This document shows, piece after piece, positions 8,917 through 31,672 of a stretch of 41,094 bases of DNA. The DNA lies in NCBI GenBank assembly GCA_013388645.1, contig JACAEV010000229.1, forward strand, positions 1-41,094, written 5' to 3'. Within the stretch, counting starts at the first letter, position 1. Every line of letters begins with the position of its first letter. The DNA is from Syntrophaceae bacterium (GTDB lineage Bacteria; Desulfobacterota; BSN033; UBA1163). The translations under genes were made by a program, and so were the position numbers. Under the pieces are notes generated by a model, which saw only the letters and a program-made list of their open reading frames with translations, made no database searches and was not told where the DNA came from.

Positions 8917-9297
8917 TGTTACCTCAATCTGTTCAAAAGGGTCACTCCGCCGTTCAGAATATCCTAAAAATTTTTTATCCCGAACTCATCACTCCGAACT
9001 TTAGACCAAATCCTCCCTCGCCTCGAAGGCGAGGGGTTCCTAAAACATATCGACTTCAAGTCGACTTGGGTCCTAATTCCCTCTTCTTCGTCATTCCTGC
9101 GGAAGCAGGAATCCAGACTTGTCCCTGCGAAAGCAGGGAACCATATAAAGAACTTCCTGGATACCCGCTTTCGCGGGTATGACGGAATGGTCGGGTTCAT
9201 TCTCATATTTGGCTCATGTTCACTCTGTTCACATTTCGCCTATTTTCGCTCCGCCTCAAGGCGAGGGGTTTCCACCATTCCCAATGGAGACACTAAA
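8917..9297. other. Repeat-rich spacer between DUF116 and fmt
   Basis: No gene. The spacer holds a perfect hairpin CCCTCGCCTCGAAGGCGAGGG (near 9014-9035), the short palindrome CGACTTCAAGTCG (near 9051-9063), a VIPAHAGIQ-type inverted-repeat element (9089-9186), and a second partial copy of the first hairpin (near 9250-9270, CCGCCTCAAGGCGAGGGG). Short open frames over this stretch on both strands are translations of the repeats. Confidence 0.65.
9089..9186. repeat. VIPAHAGIQ-type inverted-repeat element, copy 2
   Basis: The left part is CGTCATTCCTGCGGAAGCAG followed by GAATCCAG. The right part is CTGGATACCCGCTTTCGC followed by GGGTATGACG. The two halves are imperfect reverse complements, and an internal hairpin (CCCTGCGAAAGCAGGG) lies between them. 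It matches the core of the element at 1188-1329 but not that copy's outer TCGTAAAAAGTC ends. No transposase is present. Confidence 0.65.
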
Positions 9298-15805: not shown

Positions 15806-17228
15806 TATGATACTCGTTTGGATCGAGGGTCTTGACCACGCTTCGTTTAAACTCCTTGCTCTCCTCGTCTCTCTCCCTCAAGTCTACGACATCGCCCTTC
15901 CGGTATTCCCCATCTTTATAGTAAATCAGGCAAACTTTCGGTCGATCGATCAGCTCTGTCTCCTCATGAATCTGCGTGACAATCCCTATCTCATTGGTAT
16001 TCAACAATACCAGGGTTCCAAGGGGAAAGACCCCGATCATGTTAATAAAGACTTTCACCAACACCGGGTCGAAGTCTTTTCCGCTTCGCTCTAACATGAT
16101 CCCTAAAATTTTTTCGGACACATAAGGAAACCGGTTATACACTCTGGGTCTCACCAGCGCATCATAGAAATCGGCGAGGGTGATGATCCGGCCGAATAAA
16201 GAAACCTTTCTTTTTCGGGTCAGTCGGGGATATCCGGTCAAATCATATCGTAGGTGGTGCTCAAAAGCACCGTTCATCATCCGGGTGGAGAGCTCCCCCC
16301 ATTCTTTCATCTTCATGATCAGCTCGGTTCCCATAACAGGGTGGTACCGCATCATCGCCCATTCTTCCGGAGTGAGTTTCTCTGTTTTATTGAGGATGTC
16401 CTTTGGGATCTTCGTCTTCCCGATATCGTGAAATAGACCCGCCATGCCGAGATGGGAGAGATGTTTCTTCGGAATTCCGATGCGATGGCCAAGAACCATG
16501 GCGTAGATGGCCACATTGACCGAATGATTGAAGGTATATTCGTCATAATGTTTAATATTCGCCAAACCCAACAATGTGGAATCATCCTGCAGGATCGTGT
16601 TGACAGCGTTCTGCATGAGGCGTTTGGCCTTTCGGATATTCAGCATTTTCTGCTGTTGAATGCTGTCGATGACCTCTTTGATGAGAGCAATCGATTTAAA
16701 ATAGATCTCCTTAGAATATTTCTTTTGATCCTCCGAGTCGATATAGATCTCTTCGTCTTTAAACGATTCTAATTTACCGACGCGGACCGATTCGATGTTT
16801 CGATTTTCTAATCTTTGATTGAGATAGAGGTAATTGCTCTCGTTTCCTTCCTCCAACCCTGAAATCAGGTAGATGAATTCTCTGAGATCCTCTCGGCTCA
16901 TCTCCTCTAAAACTTCCACCTCTCCGATCCGCCGCTTTCTCATCTCATGCCAGAAAGCTTTAAAGAGGGGATACTTGTCCGCCTTGATGATCATACGGAT
17001 ATTATTGAAAAAGAAATTGTCACGAACAATTTTTAAGAAAAGATTCCCCTCCGATTGGATGATGTCGTTTACCACCTGGAGGCATTCCTGGATGAGATGA
17101 TCGATGAGGACATTCTTCCGGTCATAGAGCATTGCCCCTTTCAGAAGTCGATAGAACTTGATGACCCATTCTGTCCCTAATTGGGTGGAGAGGTGTTCTT
17201 GTTCAAGAGGAGATTTTTCTTCTGCCAT
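15780..17228 (-). CDS. HD-GYP domain phosphodiesterase-like protein
   Basis: From ATG 17228, whose A overlaps the stop of the HEAT gene, the protein is 482 residues. A GTG four codons upstream is an alternative start. Residues about 15-130 form an N-terminal domain also present in the upstream HEAT-repeat protein. The HD-GYP domain carries His235, the HD pair at 267-268 (LFHDIGKTKIP), His296, His324-His325 and the GYP at 332-334, with LADFYDAL as the last metal site. HD-GYP enzymes hydrolyse cyclic di-GMP or cGAMP. Here the usual HHER-DGTGYP reads HHLR-DLTGYP, so two usual residues are changed although the metal ligands remain. A C-terminal beta-rich region (about 400-450) follows. Confidence 0.85.
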   Translation of the reverse strand: MAEEKSPLEQEHLSTQLGTEWVIKFYRLLKGAMLYDRKNVLIDHLIQECLQVVNDIIQSEGNLFLKIVRDNFFFNNIRMIIKADKYPLFKAFWHEMRKRRIGEVEVLEEMSREDLREFIYLISGLEEGNESNYLYLNQRLENRNIESVRVGKLESFKDEEIYIDSEDQKKYSKEIYFKSIALIKEVIDSIQQQKMLNIRKAKRLMQNAVNTILQDDSTLLGLANIKHYDEYTFNHSVNVAIYAMVLGHRIGIPKKHLSHLGMAGLFHDIGKTKIPKDILNKTEKLTPEEWAMMRYHPVMGTELIMKMKEWGELSTRMMNGAFEHHLRYDLTGYPRLTRKRKVSLFGRIITLADFYDALVRPRVYNRFPYVSEKILGIMLERSGKDFDPVLVKVFINMIGVFPLGTLVLLNTNEIGIVTQIHEETELIDRPKVCLIYYKDGEYRKGDVVDLRERDEESKEFKRSVVKTLDPNEYHINIAEFAL

Positions 17229-19009
17229 CAGACCTGCCACTCCCTCGAGGATTGGCTTCTTAACGCTTGGACACAGGCTTCCCGAACGGATTCATCCTTT
17301 GAATTCTTCCCAGCCTCCAGAATCGCCTTCGCCTCGGAGGTCCCTATCATAGCGATCGCATTGGCTGCCTCCATTCGAATCTGATCGGTCTTCCCTCGAC
17401 CCAACCAACTCTTTCGTTCTAAGAGTTGCTGCAGGACAGGGGTCGCTTCATTGGAGCCCACCATTCCGATCGCACTAAAGAAGGCGTTGATTTCTGCCGG
17501 TTCCCTTTTATAAAAATCTTTTGATCGGACGATTTCCAAAAGGGGAATCAGGCCTGCCTTTTTTCCCACTTTGCCTAAATTGATGGCTGCGATACAACGG
17601 ATGCGAGCGTCATTGTCCGTGAGGGCATTCACCAACAACCCAATAGCTTTCTGGCCACCCATTCCCCCCAATGCCTGGACAGCCTCTCTCCTCACCCGAA
17701 GGTCCTCATGGCGCAGTGCCTTCTGAATGGTCGGAAGGGATACTTCCTTTCCTATTCGACCCAAGATATAGATGATATTCCGCACTAAAAACCATCGTCG
17801 GTCATCCACAAAAGGAATGAACTCATCGATGGCATTCTTTCCAATTTCAGAGAGGGCGTCGCAGAAGGCCCTTCTCGTCTTTGAGTTTTTCAGCTCTCCC
17901 AACAATTTAACCAATGGCTTAATGGCATTTTTAGGGAGAAGTGAAAGATAGGCATTGACCTCCTCCGCACGACTCTCCTCCCGTTCTAATATTCTTCCAA
18001 TCCGGTCGACCCGGACCTCTTCCCCGGCTTCCACAATGATTTTCCGGATCGCCTCCACCTGCCAATCCTGAAGGTCATACGTTTTAAGGATGAGATAGAC
18101 TCGCCTTAAAAGATCGGCCGCTTTGGTGAAATCGCCCAGAGTTAAAAAGGCATCCAACACCTTCGTCAAGGTGTGGGTAGCCTCCTGATAGGGTTCTTGC
18201 TCCTTCTCTAATGCCAAGATCTCAAAAAGGATGTCCACGATCTGAAATATAAAGGTCGGGTCGATCTCAGTCTCGACATCCTTTCTTAATCCTTCGACCT
18301 CCTCTGGACTAAGAAAATATACCCTTCGGTCTGAAACAAAAGGGAGAGGTTCTTCGATCACCTTGGAGAGAATCGCATCCAGATCTACCCCCTCCTCTGA
18401 TCCTTCCTCAGCGAGGTCCACCTCGACATAATGGGCAGGAGGTTTGAACACCATATTTTTCCTAAATTGATCGATATTGTCTGGGACGATGATGGGAGTT
18501 TCCTCCAGAAACTCATCGGTTGCGACAAAACCGATATGGACGAAATCTTTTTCCCACATCAAGGTGACCAGGTCATCCTCAAATTGATTGATGCTCCCCC
18601 CTTGCTTTAAAATATCAACAAGCCCTTGAACCTCCCACTCCTCCAAGCCCTTCATAAATCGAAGTTCCCTCAACCCATCTTGGTATAAAAGAAAAGCAAG
18701 GCTGGTCTTCATCTCCCTATTTTCATATAAGGTTTTACCCTTAAAGGAGAGATGGTATTCCCCAATTTTAATGACGAAGGATGGATATTTATTTAAGAAA
18801 AATTGAAATTTTTTGAGAAGCTGGTCTCGAAACCCTTGAAGGGTGGGATTATCTGGCGGATAAAATCGAAAGGCCTTGACAGCCTTGATGAAAGCTCCGA
18901 TTAAATCGCGGGCCAGGAGAAGTTCTTCATCCGTCTCAACCTCTTCGATCCCTGGCATTTCGGCACTGAGGTCGAGGGCTTTTTTGTCTCCTGAAATCTC
19001 TTCGGGCAT
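17228..19009 (-). CDS. HEAT-repeat protein paired with HD-GYP protein
   Basis: This 593-residue soluble protein starts at ATG behind AAAAGGAGCTT. Residues about 25-145 match the N-terminal domain of the downstream HD-GYP protein: an FYPPDN turn, a KIGEYHLSFKG strand pair, and helices ending in GLVDIL. A middle helical region (about 250-350) has TPR-like periodicity. The last 220 residues are HEAT repeats (for example RRAFCDALSEIG, RREAVQALGGMG, RCIAAINLGKVG, RMEAANAIAMIG). HEAT repeats are protein-binding scaffolds. The one-base stop/start overlap with the HD-GYP gene implies the two proteins are made together and probably interact. The function is inferred only. Confidence 0.8.
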   Translation of the reverse strand: MPEEISGDKKALDLSAEMPGIEEVETDEELLLARDLIGAFIKAVKAFRFYPPDNPTLQGFRDQLLKKFQFFLNKYPSFVIKIGEYHLSFKGKTLYENREMKTSLAFLLYQDGLRELRFMKGLEEWEVQGLVDILKQGGSINQFEDDLVTLMWEKDFVHIGFVATDEFLEETPIIVPDNIDQFRKNMVFKPPAHYVEVDLAEEGSEEGVDLDAILSKVIEEPLPFVSDRRVYFLSPEEVEGLRKDVETEIDPTFIFQIVDILFEILALEKEQEPYQEATHTLTKVLDAFLTLGDFTKAADLLRRVYLILKTYDLQDWQVEAIRKIIVEAGEEVRVDRIGRILEREESRAEEVNAYLSLLPKNAIKPLVKLLGELKNSKTRRAFCDALSEIGKNAIDEFIPFVDDRRWFLVRNIIYILGRIGKEVSLPTIQKALRHEDLRVRREAVQALGGMGGQKAIGLLVNALTDNDARIRCIAAINLGKVGKKAGLIPLLEIVRSKDFYKREPAEINAFFSAIGMVGSNEATPVLQQLLERKSWLGRGKTDQIRMEAANAIAMIGTSEAKAILEAGKNSKDESVREACVQALRSQSSREWQV

Positions 19010-19044
19010 AAGCTCCTTTTCCTTAAGGTTCCAACATGTTTATA

Positions 19045-19073
19045 TCTTTATGAATATTAGAAAGATTTGTCAA
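19045..19073 (-). promoter_or_regulatory. Candidate sigma-70 promoter of HEAT/HD-GYP operon
   Basis: On the minus strand, TTGACA (19073-19068) is followed after 17 bases by TAAAGA (19050-19045), with ATG 36 bases beyond. The -35 is perfect and the -10 only half-matching. The divergent rsmI gene starts at 19237, so the 227-base gap holds both promoters. A possible plus-strand promoter is TTGATC then TATCTA near 19098-19126. Confidence 0.4.
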
Positions 19074-19236
19074 TATTTTTTTTGCTCTGGCCCTCTTGAT
19101 CAATCTATCAATCAATGGTATCTAATGAATTGCCCTTGGTGGAGAGGCCATTGACGAACCACGAAAGGGGGTAATCCATTATGGGCTGTTGCCTTGAGAT
19201 GGAACCGTTATCTTCTGATCAGGATTTGATATCATC

Positions 19237-19998
19237 ATGAAGCCTTCTTCGCTTAACCCAACGAAAGGCATCCTTTACATTGTCTCCACCCCCATTGGAA
19301 ACCGAGAGGACATCACTTTGAGGGCTCTTCGGATATTAAAGGAAGTGAATCTCATCGCTGCTGAAGATACCCGGCATACTCTTCCTCTCCTCAGACACTT
19401 TGGAATCCACACCCCACTCACCAGTTATTTTGAAGGAAATGAATTGAAGAAAAAGGAATTCATCCTCTCGAAATTAAGGCAAGGAGATCAAATCGCCTTG
19501 GTCTCAGATGCGGGGACGCCTGGTATCTCAGATCCTGGATTCCGTCTGATTCAAGCAGCTATCGAAAACCATATTCCCATCGTTCCTATCCCCGGTCCTT
19601 CGGCGGCCATCACGGCTCTCTGTGTTTCTGGCCTTCCCACCGATTCCTTTCTCTTTAAAGGGTTTCTTCCTCACAAATCAAAGAAGAGAAGAGACTGGCT
19701 TGAGGCATTAAAAGAAAGAAAAGAGACGCTCATCCTTTACGAATCTCCACATCGCATCGTGGAGTCTTTGAAAGACATGTTGGATATCCTGGGCGACCGG
19801 GACATCGTTCTAACCAGAGAATTGACAAAGAAATATGAAGAAATCTTGAGAGGAAAAATCAGCGAAATTAAAGCTCAGATTGGGGAAAAGAAGTTAAAGG
19901 GAGAAATCACATTGGTCATTTCGGGGAAGGGACGTAAAAACCGATTGGGAGAGAACGAGATAGGTGACGAGGAGATGGAGAAACGAATCGATCATTGA
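19237..19998 (+). CDS. rsmI: 16S rRNA 2'-O-ribose C1402 methyltransferase
   Basis: RsmI methylates the 2'-O of C1402 in 16S rRNA. The 253-residue protein belongs to the tetrapyrrole-methylase fold. It has LYIVSTPIGNREDITLRAL at the start, AAEDTRHT, the SAM loop VSDAGTPGISDPGF, PIPGPSAAITAL and LYESPHRI. It is about 30 residues shorter than the E. coli protein and ends after the EITLVISGK strand with a charged tail, so the small C-terminal domain is mostly missing, as in several RsmI homologues. The ribosome site before ATG 19237 is weak. Confidence 0.93.
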   Translation: MKPSSLNPTKGILYIVSTPIGNREDITLRALRILKEVNLIAAEDTRHTLPLLRHFGIHTPLTSYFEGNELKKKEFILSKLRQGDQIALVSDAGTPGISDPGFRLIQAAIENHIPIVPIPGPSAAITALCVSGLPTDSFLFKGFLPHKSKKRRDWLEALKERKETLILYESPHRIVESLKDMLDILGDRDIVLTRELTKKYEEILRGKISEIKAQIGEKKLKGEITLVISGKGRKNRLGENEIGDEEMEKRIDH

Positions 19999-22628: not shown

Positions 22629-23276
22629 TCATTTGATCTTCTGAATATCCTTTTCTTTACCGATGACCACCAAGACGTCACTATCCTTAATCACAAAATC
22701 GGCGCGAGGGACCATCTGAATGCGGTCAGGGAGGACCTCCTTCACAGCAATCACTTCAACATGATATTTGCTTCTCAAATGGAGTTCTCCAATCGTCTTT
22801 CCGAAAAAACTTGGAGGAGGGATCACTTCGCTAATGGTATAATCCTCTGACAGAGGAATATAATCGAGGACGTTGGGGGAAATTAGACTTTTGGCCACTT
22901 TGTCCGCCATGGCTCTTTCCGGAATGATCACCTCTGTTGCCCCTACCTTCTCTAAGACATGTTTATGATCTTCATTGGGAGCCTTGACAATAATGGTATC
23001 CACTTTCATCTCTTTCAGATAGAGGGTGATCAGGGTGCTGGCCGCCAGGTCCTCACCAAACGAGATGATCACGACGTCATCGGTTTGAACGCCAAGGGAT
23101 TCCAAAACCTCCTTATCCGTCACATCAGCAAGAATCGCCTTGGTGGAGAAATCTTTGATCTTCTGAATGATCTCTTTATTTTTATCCACAGCGATCACTT
23201 CAAATCCATTTTCATAAAGATCTTTTGCAATGTTGAAACCAAAAATACCCAACCCAATGACCACGACTCGTTTCAT
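22629..23276 (-). CDS. trkA: TrkA/KtrA-type potassium uptake regulatory subunit (single RCK)
   Basis: This 215-residue cytoplasmic protein has one RCK module. The N-terminal Rossmann half has the NAD-binding GLGIFGFNIAKDL, acidic AVDKNKEII and DVTDKEVLESLGV. The C-terminal RCK_C half runs from about 135 to 215 (FFGKTIGELHLRSKYHVEVIAVKE...DVLVVIGK). The single-module size matches KtrA/KtrC more than the double TrkA of E. coli. These subunits gate the TrkH/KtrB channel in response to nucleotides, and RCK_C of KtrA can bind c-di-AMP in Firmicutes. The ribosome site TTAGGAGGGTATTG is strong. It lies 89 bases after the channel gene on the same strand. Confidence 0.92.
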   Translation of the reverse strand: MKRVVVIGLGIFGFNIAKDLYENGFEVIAVDKNKEIIQKIKDFSTKAILADVTDKEVLESLGVQTDDVVIISFGEDLAASTLITLYLKEMKVDTIIVKAPNEDHKHVLEKVGATEVIIPERAMADKVAKSLISPNVLDYIPLSEDYTISEVIPPPSFFGKTIGELHLRSKYHVEVIAVKEVLPDRIQMVPRADFVIKDSDVLVVIGKEKDIQKIK

Positions 23277-23365
23277 TCAATACCCTCCTAACTTGGGATG
23301 CCCACTATCCTTCTGCTTTCTATCTTCTTCCTTCTGCTCGCTGCCTACTGCCTCTTATCATTTTC

Positions 23366-24745
23366 CTATCCTACCATGACGCCTTCTTCCGCATAAGTCA
23401 ACCCTTTTCCCCCTGGACCTCGAGAGAGAGAAAAAGCAAGGGTCAAAGGCCCAACCCTTCCTGCAAACATGAGCAAAGTGATCGCGCCCTTCTGAATGTC
23501 ATTCAGAGCTGAAGTCACCCCCATGGATAGTCCCACGGTTCCGAAAGCAGATACCGCTTCAAAGAGATATTCGATAAAAAAATGGCGGCTCTCCAGAGGC
23601 GGGAGAGTTCCCCTGCCGGCGATTAGAAGAACCGACGTGATGATTGCAACTGAAAACGCGGATGCAAAGATGATCGAAATCGATCGGCTCACGATCTCCC
23701 TCGGAATGGTCCGATTAAAGATGTTGACATCCAGATTTCCCTTCAGCCGGTTCCACATCAACAGGGTGAGAAGGGTGGCGCTCGTTGTTTTTACCCCTCC
23801 ACCTGTCGAACCCGGAGAGGCTCCAATGAACATAAGGACAAGCATCAGAAGAAGGGTGGCATTGGTTAGGGATCCAATATCCACAGTGTGAAAACCGGCT
23901 GTCCTGGGGGTGACCGATTGGAACATGGAAGCAAGGATCTGGTTTAGAACGGGGAGATCCCTTAGGGTATGATTCCGTTCAAAAATAAAGAATAAAACCG
24001 ACCCAGAGAAAATAAGGATGGCCGTCGTGATGAGTGCCATCTTGGCGTGAATGGATAACTTTTTTTGAACCCTCTTTAACCTGGAAAAGACTTCATTTTG
24101 CACAATGAAACCAATCCCTCCATGAACGATTAATCCCATCATGGTCAAATTAACGATCAGGTCTCCTTGGTAGCCGATAAGGCTGTCGGAATGAAGAGAA
24201 AAGCCAGCATTGTTGAAAGCAGAGACGGCATGGTAGAGGGCCTGGTAAAGAGCTGTCCCAAAGGAAAAGTCAAAGGAAAATCGGATGGAAAGAAAAAGGG
24301 TGCCCAGAGCTTCTGTGACGAAGGTAAACCAGAGGACGGATTTCAGAATCGCAAAAAAATTTCGGGTGGGGGTATGAATGAAGGTGGATTGGACAATCTC
24401 CCTCCCTTTAAAGGAGATCCCTCGTCCCATCAGGACAAAGAAGACCGTTGAAAAAGTAATGATTCCTAAACCCCCAATCTGAATCAGGAACAAAGTGATC
24501 ACCTGACCGATCAGGGAAAGATCTTTCCCAGTATCCACCACAATCAGCCCTGTGACGCATACCGCGGAGGTGGAAGTAAAAAGGGCATCCACAAACCGGA
24601 GGGGACCCTTCGTCGCTGAGAAAGGGAAATGGAGGAGAATGGCGCCCAGGAGGATCACTCCAGCGAAACTGAGGACGAAGATCCTGCTCGGGGAGAGATG
24701 TCTTGAGAAGAAATTCTTTATCTTAATGTAAATCTTCATCGACAT
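23366..24745 (-). CDS. trkH: TrkH/KtrB family potassium channel subunit
   Basis: This 459-residue membrane protein has the four-fold M1-P-M2 repeat of the superfamily. The pore loops are visible as TSTSAVCVTGLIVVDTG, SAFNNAGFSLHSDSL, SVTPRTAGFHTVDIG and SAFGTVGLSMGV, each with its selectivity-filter glycine, and the gating loop GASPGSTGGGVKTTS lies in the third repeat. The size and single-RCK partner fit a KtrB-like uptake system. It follows kdpD by 181 bases and precedes trkA, so high-affinity (Kdp) and constitutive-type uptake genes lie in one minus-strand run. The start used is ATG 24745; ATG 24739 is equally possible, and the ribosome site is weak. Confidence 0.93.
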   Translation of the reverse strand: MSMKIYIKIKNFFSRHLSPSRIFVLSFAGVILLGAILLHFPFSATKGPLRFVDALFTSTSAVCVTGLIVVDTGKDLSLIGQVITLFLIQIGGLGIITFSTVFFVLMGRGISFKGREIVQSTFIHTPTRNFFAILKSVLWFTFVTEALGTLFLSIRFSFDFSFGTALYQALYHAVSAFNNAGFSLHSDSLIGYQGDLIVNLTMMGLIVHGGIGFIVQNEVFSRLKRVQKKLSIHAKMALITTAILIFSGSVLFFIFERNHTLRDLPVLNQILASMFQSVTPRTAGFHTVDIGSLTNATLLLMLVLMFIGASPGSTGGGVKTTSATLLTLLMWNRLKGNLDVNIFNRTIPREIVSRSISIIFASAFSVAIITSVLLIAGRGTLPPLESRHFFIEYLFEAVSAFGTVGLSMGVTSALNDIQKGAITLLMFAGRVGPLTLAFSLSRGPGGKGLTYAEEGVMVG

Positions 24746-24926: not shown

Positions 24927-26978
24927 TCATTTGACCGCCCATATTTTGATCCATCTGGCTGCGGCAAGAGCGGAAAGATTGGATAGCACCCCCAAGAGAC
25001 GTCTCTGTTCAAGCAGAAGACTTTTAAAATCGTACTGAACGCCGATCACACCAATCGTTTCTTCAAGCGATTTCATCGGCAGGAAGAAGACGTTAATGTT
25101 TGGAAGCGTTTGGGTGCCTGAGCCAGCCGGCTCTCCGTGGGTATAGGTCCACTCTGCCACCGCCATCTCATTCGTTGTGAGGTCAATATCCGTGTGACTC
25201 CGAGCCCAAACCTGTAGCCTTCCCTCTTTTCCGCTGAAGAGTACATAGGACGGTGCATCCGTAATCTTCGAGAGATACTTCATGGCAATATGACTGATAT
25301 GATCGAGAACCGTAGTACGAAACAGCGTTAATACATTCTCCCATTCCTTTGAATTCTGGACAAGCCCTCCAACAAATTGCTCAATGGGAGGGAGCGCCAA
25401 AAATTCTTTGCTCATCTCCTCAATCAGCGTGATGCGCTTGATGCGCAACTGTAAAGCAAGATTTTGGCGTCTCGTTATTTTGACGAGTTGTCCGATAATA
25501 ATGGAAGTTAGTAAAAAAACCACTACATTGATAATATCATGGGGATGATTCATGATGAGGGTGTATTTGGGCTCGGTGAAGAAAAAATCAAAAGTGAGGA
25601 GGCAGAGGACTGAAGAAAAAAGGGAGGGCCATGTGCCGAAAAGGAGAGCACTGGCAATCGTCACAATTAAATAGACAAAAACGAGTGACATGGGATGAAT
25701 GAACCTTTCGAGGAAAAAGTTCAACAAGGTCACGGCGATAACCATCATGAGGGTGAGCAAGTAATCTTTTGGATTGAACATTAGCCGCTCCGGCGTTGGC
25801 CTTACCTCACTCTCTCTTTTTTCAATCGTGGGGGTGATAAGATGCAGCTCAAACTCGCTCTGAGTGTGAAGCAAACGAGAGACCGGTGAGCCTTTCCAGA
25901 ATCCTAAAAGCATGGAGTGGAGCGGTTTACCGATCACAATATGATTAATATTGTACTCACGGGCAAACCGGAGGATCTCCTTGGCGACATCTGTCCCTGA
26001 AAGGGTTGCAATTTTTGCCCCCAATTCCTCGGCAAGGTTCAACGCCTCAGTGATATAGGTTTTATCTTTATCCGACATCTCTTTCAGGGTTGGGGTAGAG
26101 ACATACACCGCATACCATTCTGCATGGGCATCTTTGGCAATCGTATAACCTTTCCGGAGAAGCTGTTTTGCATATGGACTTGGGGCAATGCAGACCATTA
26201 ATCTTTCCGCTGCTGGCCAAGGGCCAGTAATGGCCTTGGCCCTCATATAGTTCAAAAGTTCACGGTCCATTTTATGAGCGACATGGGTCAGCGTGAGTTC
26301 CCGAAGGGCAACCAGATTGCCTCGTCGGAAAAAGTTTTCGAAGGCCTGTTTGGCCTGTGGAGGAATGTAGACTTTCCCTTCTTTCAGCCGCGTAAAAAGT
26401 TCTTCCAGGGGAATGTCAATGACCTGAACTTCATCCGCCCGATCTAAAAAAGTATCCGGTAATGTCTCTTGCATCCGGACTCCTGTTATTTTTTCGACGA
26501 CATCGTTCAGGCTCTCGAAGTGCTGAACATTTAAGGTCGTATATACATCAATGCCACACCCGAGCAATTCTTCAACATCTTGGTACCGTTTTGGATGTCG
26601 ACTGCCCGGAGCATTGGTGTGCGCAAGTTCATCAACCAAGACCACCTTTGGCCTTCTCAGAAGAATGGAATCGAGATCCAATTCTCCAAGGATGATGCCT
26701 TGATATTCTGTACGCCGTCTTGGAATCACCTCCAACCCTTTCAGTAATTCCTCCGTTTCGATCCGCCCATGGGTTTCTGCAATACCCACCACTACATCCT
26801 CACCACGTTTCTTCAATACCCGTGCTTCGTTAAGCATCGTATAGGTTTTCCCCACCCCTGGCGCATAGCCTAAGAATATTTTTAATCTTCCCCTTTTTAT
26901 CTCCTCCCGCTGCACTTCTTTCAAAAGGGCATCCGGATCGGGCCTCCTACTCTCCTCCAAACGACGCTCCTCTTCCAT
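24927..26978 (-). CDS. kdpD: KdpD-like sensor lacking the histidine kinase domain
   Basis: This 683-residue protein has the KdpD N-terminal domain (about 30-240: Walker A GYAPGVGKT at 37-45, VVLVDELAHTNAPGSRHPKR at about 112-130) and a USP-like domain (about 258-385). Four membrane helices follow at about 405-500, then a GAF domain (about 545-665). It ends at residue 683, just where the dimerisation/phosphoacceptor helix and ATPase domain begin in full-length KdpD (about 890 residues). No H-box or N/G boxes follow, and there is no room for them before trkH. No kdpE is nearby. It follows kdpC by seven bases, so it is made with the pump. It probably acts as a direct sensor or modulator, not as a kinase. 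Confidence 0.9.
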   Translation of the reverse strand: MEEERRLEESRRPDPDALLKEVQREEIKRGRLKIFLGYAPGVGKTYTMLNEARVLKKRGEDVVVGIAETHGRIETEELLKGLEVIPRRRTEYQGIILGELDLDSILLRRPKVVLVDELAHTNAPGSRHPKRYQDVEELLGCGIDVYTTLNVQHFESLNDVVEKITGVRMQETLPDTFLDRADEVQVIDIPLEELFTRLKEGKVYIPPQAKQAFENFFRRGNLVALRELTLTHVAHKMDRELLNYMRAKAITGPWPAAERLMVCIAPSPYAKQLLRKGYTIAKDAHAEWYAVYVSTPTLKEMSDKDKTYITEALNLAEELGAKIATLSGTDVAKEILRFAREYNINHIVIGKPLHSMLLGFWKGSPVSRLLHTQSEFELHLITPTIEKRESEVRPTPERLMFNPKDYLLTLMMVIAVTLLNFFLERFIHPMSLVFVYLIVTIASALLFGTWPSLFSSVLCLLTFDFFFTEPKYTLIMNHPHDIINVVVFLLTSIIIGQLVKITRRQNLALQLRIKRITLIEEMSKEFLALPPIEQFVGGLVQNSKEWENVLTLFRTTVLDHISHIAMKYLSKITDAPSYVLFSGKEGRLQVWARSHTDIDLTTNEMAVAEWTYTHGEPAGSGTQTLPNINVFFLPMKSLEETIGVIGVQYDFKSLLLEQRRLLGVLSNLSALAAARWIKIWAVK

Positions 26979-26985
26979 CGGTATC

Positions 26986-27561
26986 TTACTCTCCCTTCAA
27001 TTGATCCATTGCAAGGTTGAGTTTTAAAACATTCACCCTCGGCTGCCCCCAGATCCCCAGCAGACGAAGTTCAACCGACTGACGAACTATCTCTTCGACC
27101 TTAGCCTCGGATAATCCCCTTTCTCTCGCAATTCGCTTGACTTGAAGCATGGCTGATTCCACGCTGATATGGGGGTCGAGCCCACTGGCTGAAACCAACA
27201 CTAAATCTGCCGGAATGGCTGCCTGAGGAGGCAATCTATTCTCATGCCGCACTCGCCCCACTCGCTTCTTGACCGCCTCAATCCATTTGGCATTGGATGG
27301 ACCCAAATTACTTCCCGTTGAAGCGCTTGCATTGTAAGCTGGATCTGTTTCAGAAGGTCTCCCATGAAAATATTTAGGACCATCAAACTTTTGTCCAATG
27401 AGCTCTGAGCCAAGGATCTCATTTGCTGAGGTAATGATACTCCCATTTGATTTCCAAGGAAACAGAAATTGAGATATGGCAGTCATAAAAAGTGGGTAAA
27501 TTAGGCCGCATAAAACAGAAAAAACTACAAAGACCAGAATCGGCTGCTTTACTTGTCTCAT
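26986..27561 (-). CDS. kdpC: Potassium-transporting ATPase subunit C
   Basis: KdpC is the single-span subunit that helps assemble the KdpFABC high-affinity K+ pump. The 191-residue protein has one N-terminal membrane helix (about 6-32). Family motifs are SELIGQKFDGPKYFHGRPS, SNLGPSNAKW and, near the C-terminus, ASGLDPHISVESAMLQVKRIA, with VNVLKLNLAMD close to the end. ATG at 27561 is 18 bases after the kdpB stop, with GAGAAGG upstream. Operon order kdpA-kdpB-kdpC-kdpD is canonical. Confidence 0.96.
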   Translation of the reverse strand: MRQVKQPILVFVVFSVLCGLIYPLFMTAISQFLFPWKSNGSIITSANEILGSELIGQKFDGPKYFHGRPSETDPAYNASASTGSNLGPSNAKWIEAVKKRVGRVRHENRLPPQAAIPADLVLVSASGLDPHISVESAMLQVKRIARERGLSEAKVEEIVRQSVELRLLGIWGQPRVNVLKLNLAMDQLKGE

Positions 27562-27579
27562 GAAAATCTTACCTTCTCT

Positions 27580-29616
27580 CTATACCAAATTCAGTCCGGA
27601 AATTAAAAGATCGATCAATTTAATGCCGATAAAGGGAATCATTAGCCCCCCAAATCCAAAGATCAAAAGATTACGGCGAAGCAATGCAGAAACCATAGTG
27701 GGTCTGTATCGAACCCCTCTCAAGGCAAGAGGGATAAGCATGGGAATGATGATCGCATTAAAGATCACGGCAGATAATACCGCTGTTTTAGGGCTTGCAA
27801 GGTCCATAATATCAAGAATTCCAAGCAACGGGTATTGGGCGATGAACATGGCAGGGAGGATCGCAAAATACTTGGCCAAGTCATTGGCGACACTAAAGGT
27901 CGTCAGTGCACCCCGGGTAATAAGGATTTGTTTACCGATCTCGACAATATCGAGGAGCTTCGTTGGGTTTGAATCAAGATCTACGATATTGGCGGCTTCT
28001 CGTGCCGCCTGTGTCCCTGCATTCATGGCCACCGCTACATCAGCCTGTGCCAGGGCTGGTGCGTCGTTCGTTCCATCCCCTATCATGGCAACAAGGTGTC
28101 CTTCAGCCTGGTATTTCCTGATGAGCTCCAGTTTGATATTGGGTTTTGCCTCTGCGATAAAATCACCCACACCAGCTTCTGCTGCGATCGTGGCTGCCGT
28201 TAATGGATTATCTCCGGTAATCATGACAGACTTTATACCCATTTGACGGATTTGGGATATTCGTTCATGGATGCCTTTTTTAAGAACGTCCTTTAAGCGA
28301 ATCACACCCAGAATTTTTCCATCCTCCGCAACGACCAGAGGAGTACAGCCTTCCTGGGAGACTGCATCCACGATCTGTCGAACCTTTTCTGGCATCGTCC
28401 CTCCCTGAGCTGTCACAAAATCCTTAATGGCATCATATGCCCCTTTACGTATTCGATGACCGCTCCAGTCAATGCCGCTCATTCGTGTATCCACGCTGAA
28501 AGAGAAAAAAGAAGCACCGACCGGAGCGCGGATGTCCCGACCACGCATTCCTAACCTTTCTTTTGCGAGGACCACGATACTTCTCCCCTCGGGCGTGTCA
28601 TCAGCAAGGGAGGCCAGCAGGGTAGAATGGATAAGATCCTTTTCACTCACCCCTTCAGTTGCGAGAAACTCAGTGGCCATTCTATTCCCGAGAGTGATGG
28701 TTCCCGTTTTATCCATAAGGACAACATCTACATCCCCCGCTGCCTCTACAGCTCGACCACTCATCGCAATAAAGTTATGTCGTAGTAATCGATCCATCCC
28801 TGCAATGCCGATGGCCGGTAATAATCCCCCAATCGTTGTTGGCATTAAGCAAACCAGTAAGGCAACCAATATTGGGGTGGTGGTGCTAACACTCATGTAT
28901 TCTGCAAAATATCTTAATGTAATGACCACCGTGATGAAGGTGACCGTAAGCCCAATAAGAAGAACGTCCAGCGCCTTCTCGTTAGGTGTTTTTTTTCTTT
29001 TTGCGCTTTCAACCATAGTAATCATCTGGTCAAAAAACGTTTCACCTGGATTGGCCGTTATTCGGACCTTTATCTTTCCTGAAAGGACACGAGTTCCTCC
29101 GGTCACACCGCTTCGGTCCCCTCCCGCCTCTCTGATCACAGGTGCCGATTCACCGGTGATTGCCGATTCGTCGACCAGGGCAACGCCTTCGGTCACTTCA
29201 CCGTCGCCAGGAATCGGATCACCCTCCTCCACCCAAACGACATCCCCTTTATGGAGGGATAGTGCAGAGATCGTCTCGAGACTTCCATCAGCGAGCAACC
29301 TCTTTGCAAAAGCCTCGCTACGGGTTTTTTTCAAAGACTCTGCCTGAGCCCTGCCTTGACCTTCAGCGAGAGCTTCGGCAAAGTTGGCAAAAAGGAGGGT
29401 GAACCACAACCAGAGACTGATCTGGCCGTTAAATCCAAAGTCTCCTCCTGTGAGGAAGTCCCTCACCGTAATCCATAAGGTGATCACAGAAACCATTTCC
29501 ACGATAAACATCACTGGGTTTTTTGCCATGATCCGGGGATTAAGCTTACGCACAGAGTCCTTTAAAGCCTGTATCATCAATTCTGATTTCCAAATTCTTA
29601 GTTTCTTCTCTTTCAT
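27580..29616 (-). CDS. kdpB: Potassium-transporting P-type ATPase subunit B
   Basis: KdpB is the ATP-hydrolysing subunit of the KdpFABC pump. From ATG 29616 it has 678 residues, close to the 682 of E. coli KdpB. A TTG at 29643 in frame would overlap kdpA and lacks a ribosome site. The actuator loop AITGESAPV, phosphorylation site DKTGTITLG, nucleotide-binding GAYDAIKDF and hinge [18 protein letters not shown] are all intact. The K+/P-ATPase serine phosphorylation region near TGES is also as in the family. It sits between kdpA (10 bases away) and kdpC. Confidence 0.96.
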
Positions 29617-29626
29617 CTCAACCCGC

Positions 29627-31339
29627 TTAAAATGTTTTTCCAATCTGAACGAGGAGGTGTTCCAGAAGTGGCCCCAGTGTTAGAGCCGGGAAAAATGTCA
29701 ACGCACCCACAACGATCACCACACCGACGAGCATCATTACAAAGAGCATATTTGTCGTTGGAAAGGTCCCTGTGCTGACTGGGATAATCTGTTTCTTGGC
29801 GAGAGAGCCTGATATGGCAAGGGCCGGAAAAATGGTAGAGAATCGACCTACCAACATGGCAAAGGAAGTGGTCAAGTTGTAAAAAAGCGTATTGGCATTC
29901 AGTCCTGCAAAGGCAGAACCATTGTTATTTGCCGATGAGGCATAGGCATAAAGAACTTCTGAAAGTCCGTGAGGCCCTGCATTACTAAGACTTGAAAGGC
30001 CGATTTTTGTCGAAATCGCGATGCTCGCCATCAAGAGCATGGTTACAGCTGGAGACAAAACTGCAATAACAGACATCATCATTTCGTAAGGTTCCAGCTT
30101 CTTACCGATAAATTCAGGAGTTCTTCCAATCATCAATCCTGCAAGAAACATCGTAAGGATGGCATAAATGATCATACCGATGAGCCCTACCCCGACACCG
30201 CCAAAGATGACTTCGCCGATAGCCATATTAAAAATCAGAACCAACCCGCTCAGAGGCATCAGGCTATCATGCATACTATTAACAGCTCCACTCGCAACAG
30301 CCGTCGTCGATTGTGCAAATAGGATAGAGTGAATGACCCCAAATCGGACTTCCTTCCCCTCCATGTTGATCCCGTTGTGAATTCCAATTCTTTCAAGGAT
30401 CGGGTTTCCCTGAAATTCTGACCAGAGGGTCACGGCCAACCCAATTAGGAACAGAGCCATCATGGAAGCGAAAATTGCCCAGCCCTGTCTGCGTTTATTT
30501 AACATCGCCCCAAAGGTAAGAGGGAGGGACACTGGAAGAAGCATCAACCCGAAGACCTCCATAAAATCTGTCAGGGGTGTGGGACTTTCAAAAGGATGGG
30601 CAGAGTTGGTATTGAAAAAACCTCCTCCGTTGGTGCCAAGTTGTTTGATCGCTACCTGGGACGCCGTCGGGCCAAGGGCAATGACTTGCTCCCTTCCCTC
30701 AAGGGTCCGCGCATGGATGGAAGGTCTCAAGGTTTGGACAACGCCCTGTGATGATAGTACAATTGCCCAAATAATAGTCAATGGCAATAATACATACAAC
30801 AGCGATCGAGTCAAATCCACCCAAAAATTTCCTATGGTTTCTGCTGTCCTTCGGATAAATCCTCTAATCAAAGCAATAACGGAGGAAAGGCCCACAGCAG
30901 CGGAAAGGAAGTTCTGCACAGTCAAACCTGCCATCTGGGTAAAATAACTCATGGTCATCTCACCACTGTAAGACTGCCAATTCGTATTGGTAACAAAGGA
31001 TATGGCTGCGTTGAGCGCGGTATCCCAACGGACAGCACCAAACTTCTGAGGATTAAACGGCAGCCATCCCTGGATGAGTTGAAGAATAAACAGGCCCATA
31101 ATCCCAATCGCATTAAAAATGATGAGTGAAAATGCATACGTCTTCCAAGACATTTCCTCTTTTTCATTAACACCAAAAACCCTATAGAGCACTCTTTCTA
31201 CTGGGCCCACTATTCGTGTAAGAAAAGTCCGTTTACCATTGAACACCTTTGCCATGAATTCTCCCAGAGGTAAGGCAAAGAGAGTCAGGAGACATAAAAA
31301 GAATAAGATGGGAAACAAATCATGAAAAGTCATACTCAT
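29627..31339 (-). CDS. kdpA: Potassium-transporting ATPase subunit A
   Basis: KdpA is the channel-like, K+-selective subunit of the KdpFABC pump. The 570-residue protein has ten or so membrane helices and four pore loops, including [35 protein letters not shown] and [15 protein letters not shown] at 31339 overlaps the stop of a 45-codon open frame (ATGA), and a second ATG two codons later has GGGAG at good distance. It is the first recognised gene after the c-di-AMP riboswitch and terminator. Confidence 0.96.
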
Positions 31340-31483: not shown

Positions 31484-31512
31484 AAAAAAGCCAGGAGGAG
31501 ATCCCCCTAGCT
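31484..31512 (-). terminator. Intrinsic terminator of the c-di-AMP riboswitch
   Basis: On the minus strand AGCTAGGGGG pairs with CCTCCTGGCT (10 bp, two G-U pairs, four-base loop), immediately followed by TTTTTTATTT. It lies directly downstream of the aptamer and before kdpA. This is the arrangement expected for a switch that stops transcription when ligand is bound. Confidence 0.8.
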
Positions 31513-31513
31513 T

Positions 31514-31633
31514 CCTTCTCTTCCCTTAGTTGCCTGCGGAGTTAGCTGACGGGTTAGAATTAAGGGATATCCTTTCCAGTTTGTCTGGAATTCACCCCAA
31601 AAAATGGTTCCCCCGCTTATTTCAATTCGGCCT
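31514..31633 (-). promoter_or_regulatory. c-di-AMP riboswitch (ydaO/yuaA type) ahead of kdp
   Basis: The aptamer carries the conserved blocks of this class in order. GGCCGAATT is at about 31632-31624 and GGGGGAACC at 31614-31606. Next come TTTTTTGGGGTGAAT (31604-31590), a variable hairpin TTCCAG/CTGGAA, GGATATCCC (31572-31564), ACCCGTCAGCTAACTCCGCA (about 31554-31535) and GGCAAC. These closely resemble the Thermoanaerobacter aptamers of known structure, as recalled without alignment software. Members bind cyclic di-AMP and usually turn genes off. An intrinsic terminator follows at once. Its target here is the kdp potassium pump, which fits the known role of c-di-AMP as the signal of potassium sufficiency. 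Confidence 0.9.
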
Positions 31634-31643
31634 ATTAATTTTT

Positions 31644-31672
31644 ATTAAATAACTAAACTTATATTTTGTCAA
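31644..31672 (-). promoter_or_regulatory. Strong sigma-70 promoter of the kdp transcript
   Basis: Minus-strand TTGACA (31672-31667), a 17-base spacer, and TTTAAT (31649-31644) give a near-consensus promoter. Its expected start, near 31637, lies just before the first conserved block of the riboswitch. The -35 begins only 12 bases after the livF stop codon. Confidence 0.75.

Follow-up and report, generated by a model that had tools for sequence, protein, structure and literature searches.

A predicted c-di-AMP riboswitch and intrinsic terminator ahead of the kdp operon of a Syntrophaceae bacterium from the Desulfobacterota

The window, by which we mean the whole stretch of 41,094 nucleotides analysed here (contig JACAEV010000229.1 of a Syntrophaceae bacterium, draft genome G000), carries on its minus strand genes for a Kdp-type K+ pump, which are followed by a kdpD-like gene and two Trk/Ktr-type genes and preceded by a structured leader. 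The elements are listed below from the promoter boxes downstream, with the method or model on which each assignment rests.

31667..31672, minus: −35 box TTGACA (direct reading; kept in the sister species G003)
31644..31649, minus: −10 box TTTAAT, 17-nt spacer (direct reading; 5/6 consensus, no A at position 2)
31516..31642, minus: c-di-AMP (ydaO/yuaA) riboswitch aptamer (RF00379, 94.5 bits, E 3.4e-21)
31561..31567, minus: pseudoknot 5' strand UCCCUUA, perfect complement of 31528-31522
31544..31553, minus: aptamer 3' core segment CCCGUCAGCU, predicted 5' strand of the antiterminator (pairs with 31512-31503 when the terminator 3' arm is left out)
31522..31528, minus: pseudoknot 3' strand UAAGGGA, pairing with 31567-31561
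31488..31513, minus: intrinsic terminator hairpin of 11 bp with a 4-nt loop, then a U-run (scan and folding)
31503..31512, minus: terminator 5' arm, predicted 3' strand of the antiterminator and alternative partner of the aptamer core (folding)
29627..31339, minus: kdpA, likely start at the second ATG, 31333 (TIGR00680, 745.7 bits)
27580..29643, minus: kdpB (TIGR01497, 1012 bits; TGES loop at residue 163)
26986..27561, minus: kdpC (NF001454, 219.5 bits, above its cut-off)
24927..26978, minus: kdpD-like gene (KdpD, Usp, DUF4118 and GAF_3; no histidine-kinase domains; Pfam)
23366..24745, minus: gene for a trkH/ktrB-type K+ uptake protein (TIGR00933, 354.5 bits)
22629..23276, minus: gene for a trkA/ktrA-type protein with TrkA_N and TrkA_C domains (Pfam)

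As the original prediction had proposed, the riboswitch and terminator lie on the same strand as kdpA and directly upstream of it, and kdpB and kdpC then follow. The kdpD-like gene is separated from trkH and trkA by a gap of 181 bp; trkH is possibly part of the same transcript as kdp, and the reach of the riboswitch may extend to both Trk genes (22629-24745, minus). In some other bacteria, domains of the TrkA_C type serve as receptors for c-di-AMP. The interval between the terminator and kdpA also contains an ORF of 45 codons (31473-31336, minus), the stop codon of which overlaps the first ATG of kdpA. A translationally coupled small protein is unproven at this position, with no visible Shine-Dalgarno sequence and no Pfam match over the cut-off; the ORF is not KdpF-like and has no counterpart in G051, one of the other genomes with a kdp-linked riboswitch.

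The aptamer is matched end to end by RF00379 (31642..31516, minus; model positions 1-134 of 134 by cmscan), and its score of 94.5 bits compares with a gathering score of 38 bits, at which RF00379 is the sole Rfam match of the window. All conserved blocks of the ydaO/yuaA class are thus intact, as had been claimed from inspection, and the minus-strand covariance search that had been suggested as a check returned a strong match (E 3.4e-21) rather than none. The 250-contig draft of G000 (3.95 Mb) holds one RF00379 copy. Members of the ydaO/yuaA class form a pairing between the last hairpin loop and the 3' tail, a contact of a kind that the Rfam structure line cannot display; the solved structure of the class includes a pseudoknot (PMC5393176). 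In the window, this long-range pairing is a perfect 7-bp helix whose sequence is unlike that of most relatives. At 59 sites of this phylum, the pairing of each site's own strands averaged 17.1, compared with 13.9 ± 0.35 for swapped strands and a maximum of 15.2 over 5000 permutations that ignored relatedness among sites. The pseudoknot helix therefore covaries within the family, and the window fits that pattern. From the behavior of relatives, the aptamer of the window is predicted to bind c-di-AMP.

A promoter is predicted immediately ahead of the aptamer. The earlier description of it as near-consensus holds for the −35 box and is weaker for the −10 box, which is imperfect and in that respect counts against the switch model. 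A consensus promoter scan did not list the TTGACA/TTTAAT pair because its rule accepts only A as the second base of the −10 box. The −35 box recurs in G003, where its distance to the aptamer is the same within one nucleotide, though the upstream genes differ.

Downstream of the aptamer, the terminator reads AAGCUAGGGGG-AUCU-CCUCCUGGCUU (31513-31488) with the U-run 3' of the hairpin. The terminator and U-run had been anticipated correctly, with the length of the stem corrected from 10 to 11 bp; the stem is G+C-rich and extends to 15 pairs when the flanking A-U pairs are included. A scan of 9.5 kb gave 18 terminator-like sites (10.7 ± 2.8 expected), of which this hairpin has the most pairs, and its 34-nt stem folds at −20.5 kcal/mol compared with −6.1 ± 2.3 for shuffled letters. 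When the terminator 3' arm was left out of the folding, 31512-31503 paired with CCCGUCAGCU (31553-31544), which belongs to the conserved 3' core of the aptamer. The predicted antiterminator overlaps both aptamer pairs and terminator pairs and, since the CCC within CCCGUCAGCU is part of an aptamer helix, antiterminator, aptamer and terminator would be mutually exclusive, as expected of such a device; these foldings are thermodynamic predictions made without ligand or pseudoknot. In G003, both arms of the terminator are changed in sequence and still form a strong hairpin with a U-run at the same place. The predicted antiterminator of G003 likewise uses the ACC segment of the aptamer; its helix is not the same as that of G000, which counts against the switch model.

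The kdpD-like gene encodes a protein of 683 amino acids in which Pfam recognizes KdpD, Usp, DUF4118 and GAF_3 and neither of the HisKA and HATPase domains (DHp/CA). No other protein encoded in the draft genome matches KdpD strongly, and no kdpE is found in the kdp cluster of the window. The N-terminal domain of E. coli KdpD phosphorylates Ser162 of KdpB and thereby inactivates the pump, and a short KdpD does the same under the control of c-di-AMP (PMC11018627). The KdpD of the window keeps Walker A (G-X5-GKT) and Walker B (DE), and KdpB keeps the TGES serine. The residue after GKT is Tyr, at the position of Trp39 in E. coli, and the Usp motif (A/G/C)xSxSxxN is represented by APSPYAKQ, which lacks the second Ser and the Asn; that motif was defined on Firmicutes (S. 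aureus), so that the KdpD of the window may still bind c-di-AMP. Because the Walker motifs of the KdpB-silencing serine kinase are retained, the protein probably serves post-translational control of the pump. At the level of transcription, the original prediction had left open whether the riboswitch would replace or override KdpDE. With a single KdpD that lacks HisKA and HATPase, replacement fits better, and the view that the riboswitch stands in place of KdpDE-type transcriptional control is well supported by this domain content. A short KdpD occurs in all four genomes with a riboswitch-kdp arrangement and also in 46 of the 70 genomes of the phylum sample that have a strong KdpD match; an enrichment in the former is not significant (4/4 by chance, P = 0.18).

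The genome has the means to make and degrade the ligand. It encodes one protein with a diadenylate cyclase domain, of about 308 amino acids and with a DacZ_P sensor domain (E 4e-22; L002 964-1887, G000:C218), as well as a PgpH-type phosphodiesterase (7TM-HD, E 6e-42). A DisA/CdaA-type cyclase had been suggested as the enzyme to look for; a cyclase is present, so that refutation by its absence fails, and its type is DacZ-like. This type is known mainly from archaea. Similarly weak DAC scores were obtained for most members of family f1. A cyclase domain is found in all 51 genomes that bear the riboswitch, compared with 354 of the 395 genomes in the whole phylum sample. G000 also encodes the outer-membrane proteins Omp85/BamA (E 1e-63) and LptD (E 2e-24), both of which are absent from the Bacillus control, and the host is therefore not a member of the Bacillales.

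RF00379 occurs in 51 of the 395 genomes sampled from the phylum, so that the class is not exotic there. The genes 3' of the 60 sites examined in this respect encode Kup (25), KimA-like APC (13), other APC (7), KdpA (4) and TrkA (2), that is, proven or likely K+ transport proteins at 51 sites; the remaining nine include small cell-wall-type proteins. The four kdp-linked sites are those of the window, G003 from the same genus, and G051 and G328 from other families, with the G328 aptamer interrupted by a contig end. The kdp locus of another genome, G160, has a KdpA 78% and a KdpD about 80% identical to those of the window and has no riboswitch, and the arrangement is thus not universal for this pump. 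The riboswitch is also absent from two loci with KdpA relatives, L010 (titled Deltaproteobacteria, tree grouping with Myxococcota) and L011 (Promineifilum). The KdpA tree, which needs four changes, does not support a single origin for the kdp-linked riboswitches. Two other sets of sites emerged from the survey. A divergent subgroup scoring 61-64 bits (G100:C32:32684, G398:C103:6258 and G229:C1:1579365), with the pseudoknot UGCUUUAG/UUAAAGCA, sits 5' of a small, apparently secreted protein of 118 amino acids. A strong c-di-AMP riboswitch (101.5 bits) at G241:C28:545-680 (L013) precedes a gene whose product reads like a radical SAM protein of the lysine 2,3-aminomutase type; it may be an osmolyte gene.

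The G003 locus (L070 3377-12254, G003:C13) was compared with positions 24927-31339 of the window. Its riboswitch is nearly identical to that of the window (93.4 bits), and its downstream KdpD is 82% identical, with rsmI and HEAT-repeat genes after it that are the same as those at 17228-19998 of the window. Between riboswitch and KdpD lie a kdpFABC of another lineage and a BBP2-type porin; the KdpA of G003 shares 34% identity with that of the window, compared with 79-80% with the pumps of families f91 and f8. In G160 and G051, a pump of the window kind occurs together with a KdpD of the window kind. The simplest reading of the two draft genomes is that the pump genes were replaced in place in G003 and that the control elements were kept. 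The riboswitch and short KdpD may even form a portable c-di-AMP control cassette, with one transcriptional and one post-translational arm, between which the Kdp pump is exchanged, a tentative idea that we hold at somewhat less than even odds. The terminator of G003 is separated from kdpF by about 560 nt, within which lies a short repeat with relatives in the window, and for this reason the G003 pump may also have a promoter of its own. The repeat, CGTCATTCC...GGAATCCAG / CTGGATTCC, lies at about 1017-1280 and at 9089-9116 of the window and, in this terminator-kdpF interval of the G003 leader, at L070 2749-2803.

Taken together, the computed aptamer, pseudoknot, terminator, gene order, KdpD domain content and presence of c-di-AMP enzymes point to a c-di-AMP riboswitch that acts with an intrinsic terminator to switch off transcription of the kdpABC-kdpD operon in place of KdpDE, a reading to which we assign a probability of about 0.9. 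We infer the OFF direction and the K+ dependence by analogy with related riboswitches. When K+ is replete and c-di-AMP is high, the ligand would lock aptamer and pseudoknot into their bound state; with the aptamer's 3' core then out of reach of the terminator 5' arm, the 11-bp hairpin would form, and RNA polymerase would stop ahead of kdpA. Under K+ limitation, c-di-AMP would fall and CCCGUCAGCU would form the antiterminator with the terminator 5' arm, which would allow expression of the pump.

The alternatives differ in which part of this scheme they give up. Control of kdp might rest mainly with a histidine kinase and a response regulator that are unlinked to it, the riboswitch being a secondary brake. 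Some species with a short KdpD do use a separate two-component system (PMC11018627), and in a draft genome a KdpE or another histidine kinase may lie elsewhere. We regard this as unlikely, although it is the strongest competitor: the cluster has neither kdpE nor a KdpD that bears a kinase, and riboswitch and KdpDE were mutually exclusive in a published survey (PMC6488665). Alternatively, the aptamer could be real and act through translation or Rho, the hairpin being incidental. Actinobacterial c-di-AMP riboswitches can be terminator-less and may act on translation (PMC9960051), and the kdp-linked copy of G051 has only a weak hairpin 3' of the aptamer. The leader of the window, however, has a strong hairpin with a U-run directly 3' of the aptamer, and the hairpin stops short of the kdpA ribosome binding site, which lies about 150 nt further downstream. 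That G003 keeps a strong terminator in this position despite changes in both arms also speaks against incidental pairing, and we consider this explanation improbable.

Least probable of all, in our judgment, is that the riboswitch has decayed and lost its response to c-di-AMP, and that kdp expression comes from read-through or from another promoter. Its single copy and patchy occurrence, in G000 and G003 alone of the class members sampled, would suit decay, but the conserved blocks are all intact, the pseudoknot is perfect, and G003 retains both the −35 box and a terminator.

The closest known system is that of Bacillus thuringiensis BMB171, in which c-di-AMP promotes termination ahead of kdpFABC and K+ limitation lowers c-di-AMP; a truncated KdpD was found in all 12 riboswitch-kdp species then known, and the pairing seemed restricted to Bacillales (Wang et al. 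2019, PMC6488665). The two systems share the aptamer class, a terminator 3' of the aptamer, a kdp operon downstream, a KdpD without kinase domains and the lack of a linked KdpE. They differ in that the host of the window has outer-membrane markers and is outside the Bacillales, no kdpF was seen ahead of kdpA, Trk genes follow the operon, KdpD keeps its DUF4118 and GAF regions, and the cyclase is DacZ-like instead of DisA, CdaA or CdaS. The RF00379 riboswitches before kimA and ktrAB in Bacillus subtilis resemble that of the window in the aptamer, the K+ uptake target and a terminator-type OFF logic, whereas the target in the window is the Kdp ATPase. The KdpD of the window likewise resembles the short KdpD serine kinase (PMC11018627) in its G-X5-GKT and DE motifs, its Usp domain, the missing kinase half and a cyclase in the genome; unlike that protein, it is longer, contains DUF4118 and GAF, departs from the S. 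aureus-type Usp motif and has Tyr for Trp. With E. coli KdpDE it shares the sensor domains of KdpD, and it differs in having neither DHp/CA kinase domains nor a linked KdpE.

The novelty is modest, a known device in a new context, as riboswitch-kdp control has already been published for Bacillales. What is new is its occurrence in an outer-membrane-bearing phylum, at four of the 60 sites, and the range is therefore wider than reported. The pairing of a riboswitch with a kinase-less KdpD is now seen in a diderm lineage, in a genome whose sole detected cyclase is DacZ-like, which lends support to a possible takeover of both levels of Kdp control by c-di-AMP. In addition, the riboswitch and KdpD kept around an exchanged pump would allow a test of whether control parts and transporter evolve separately.
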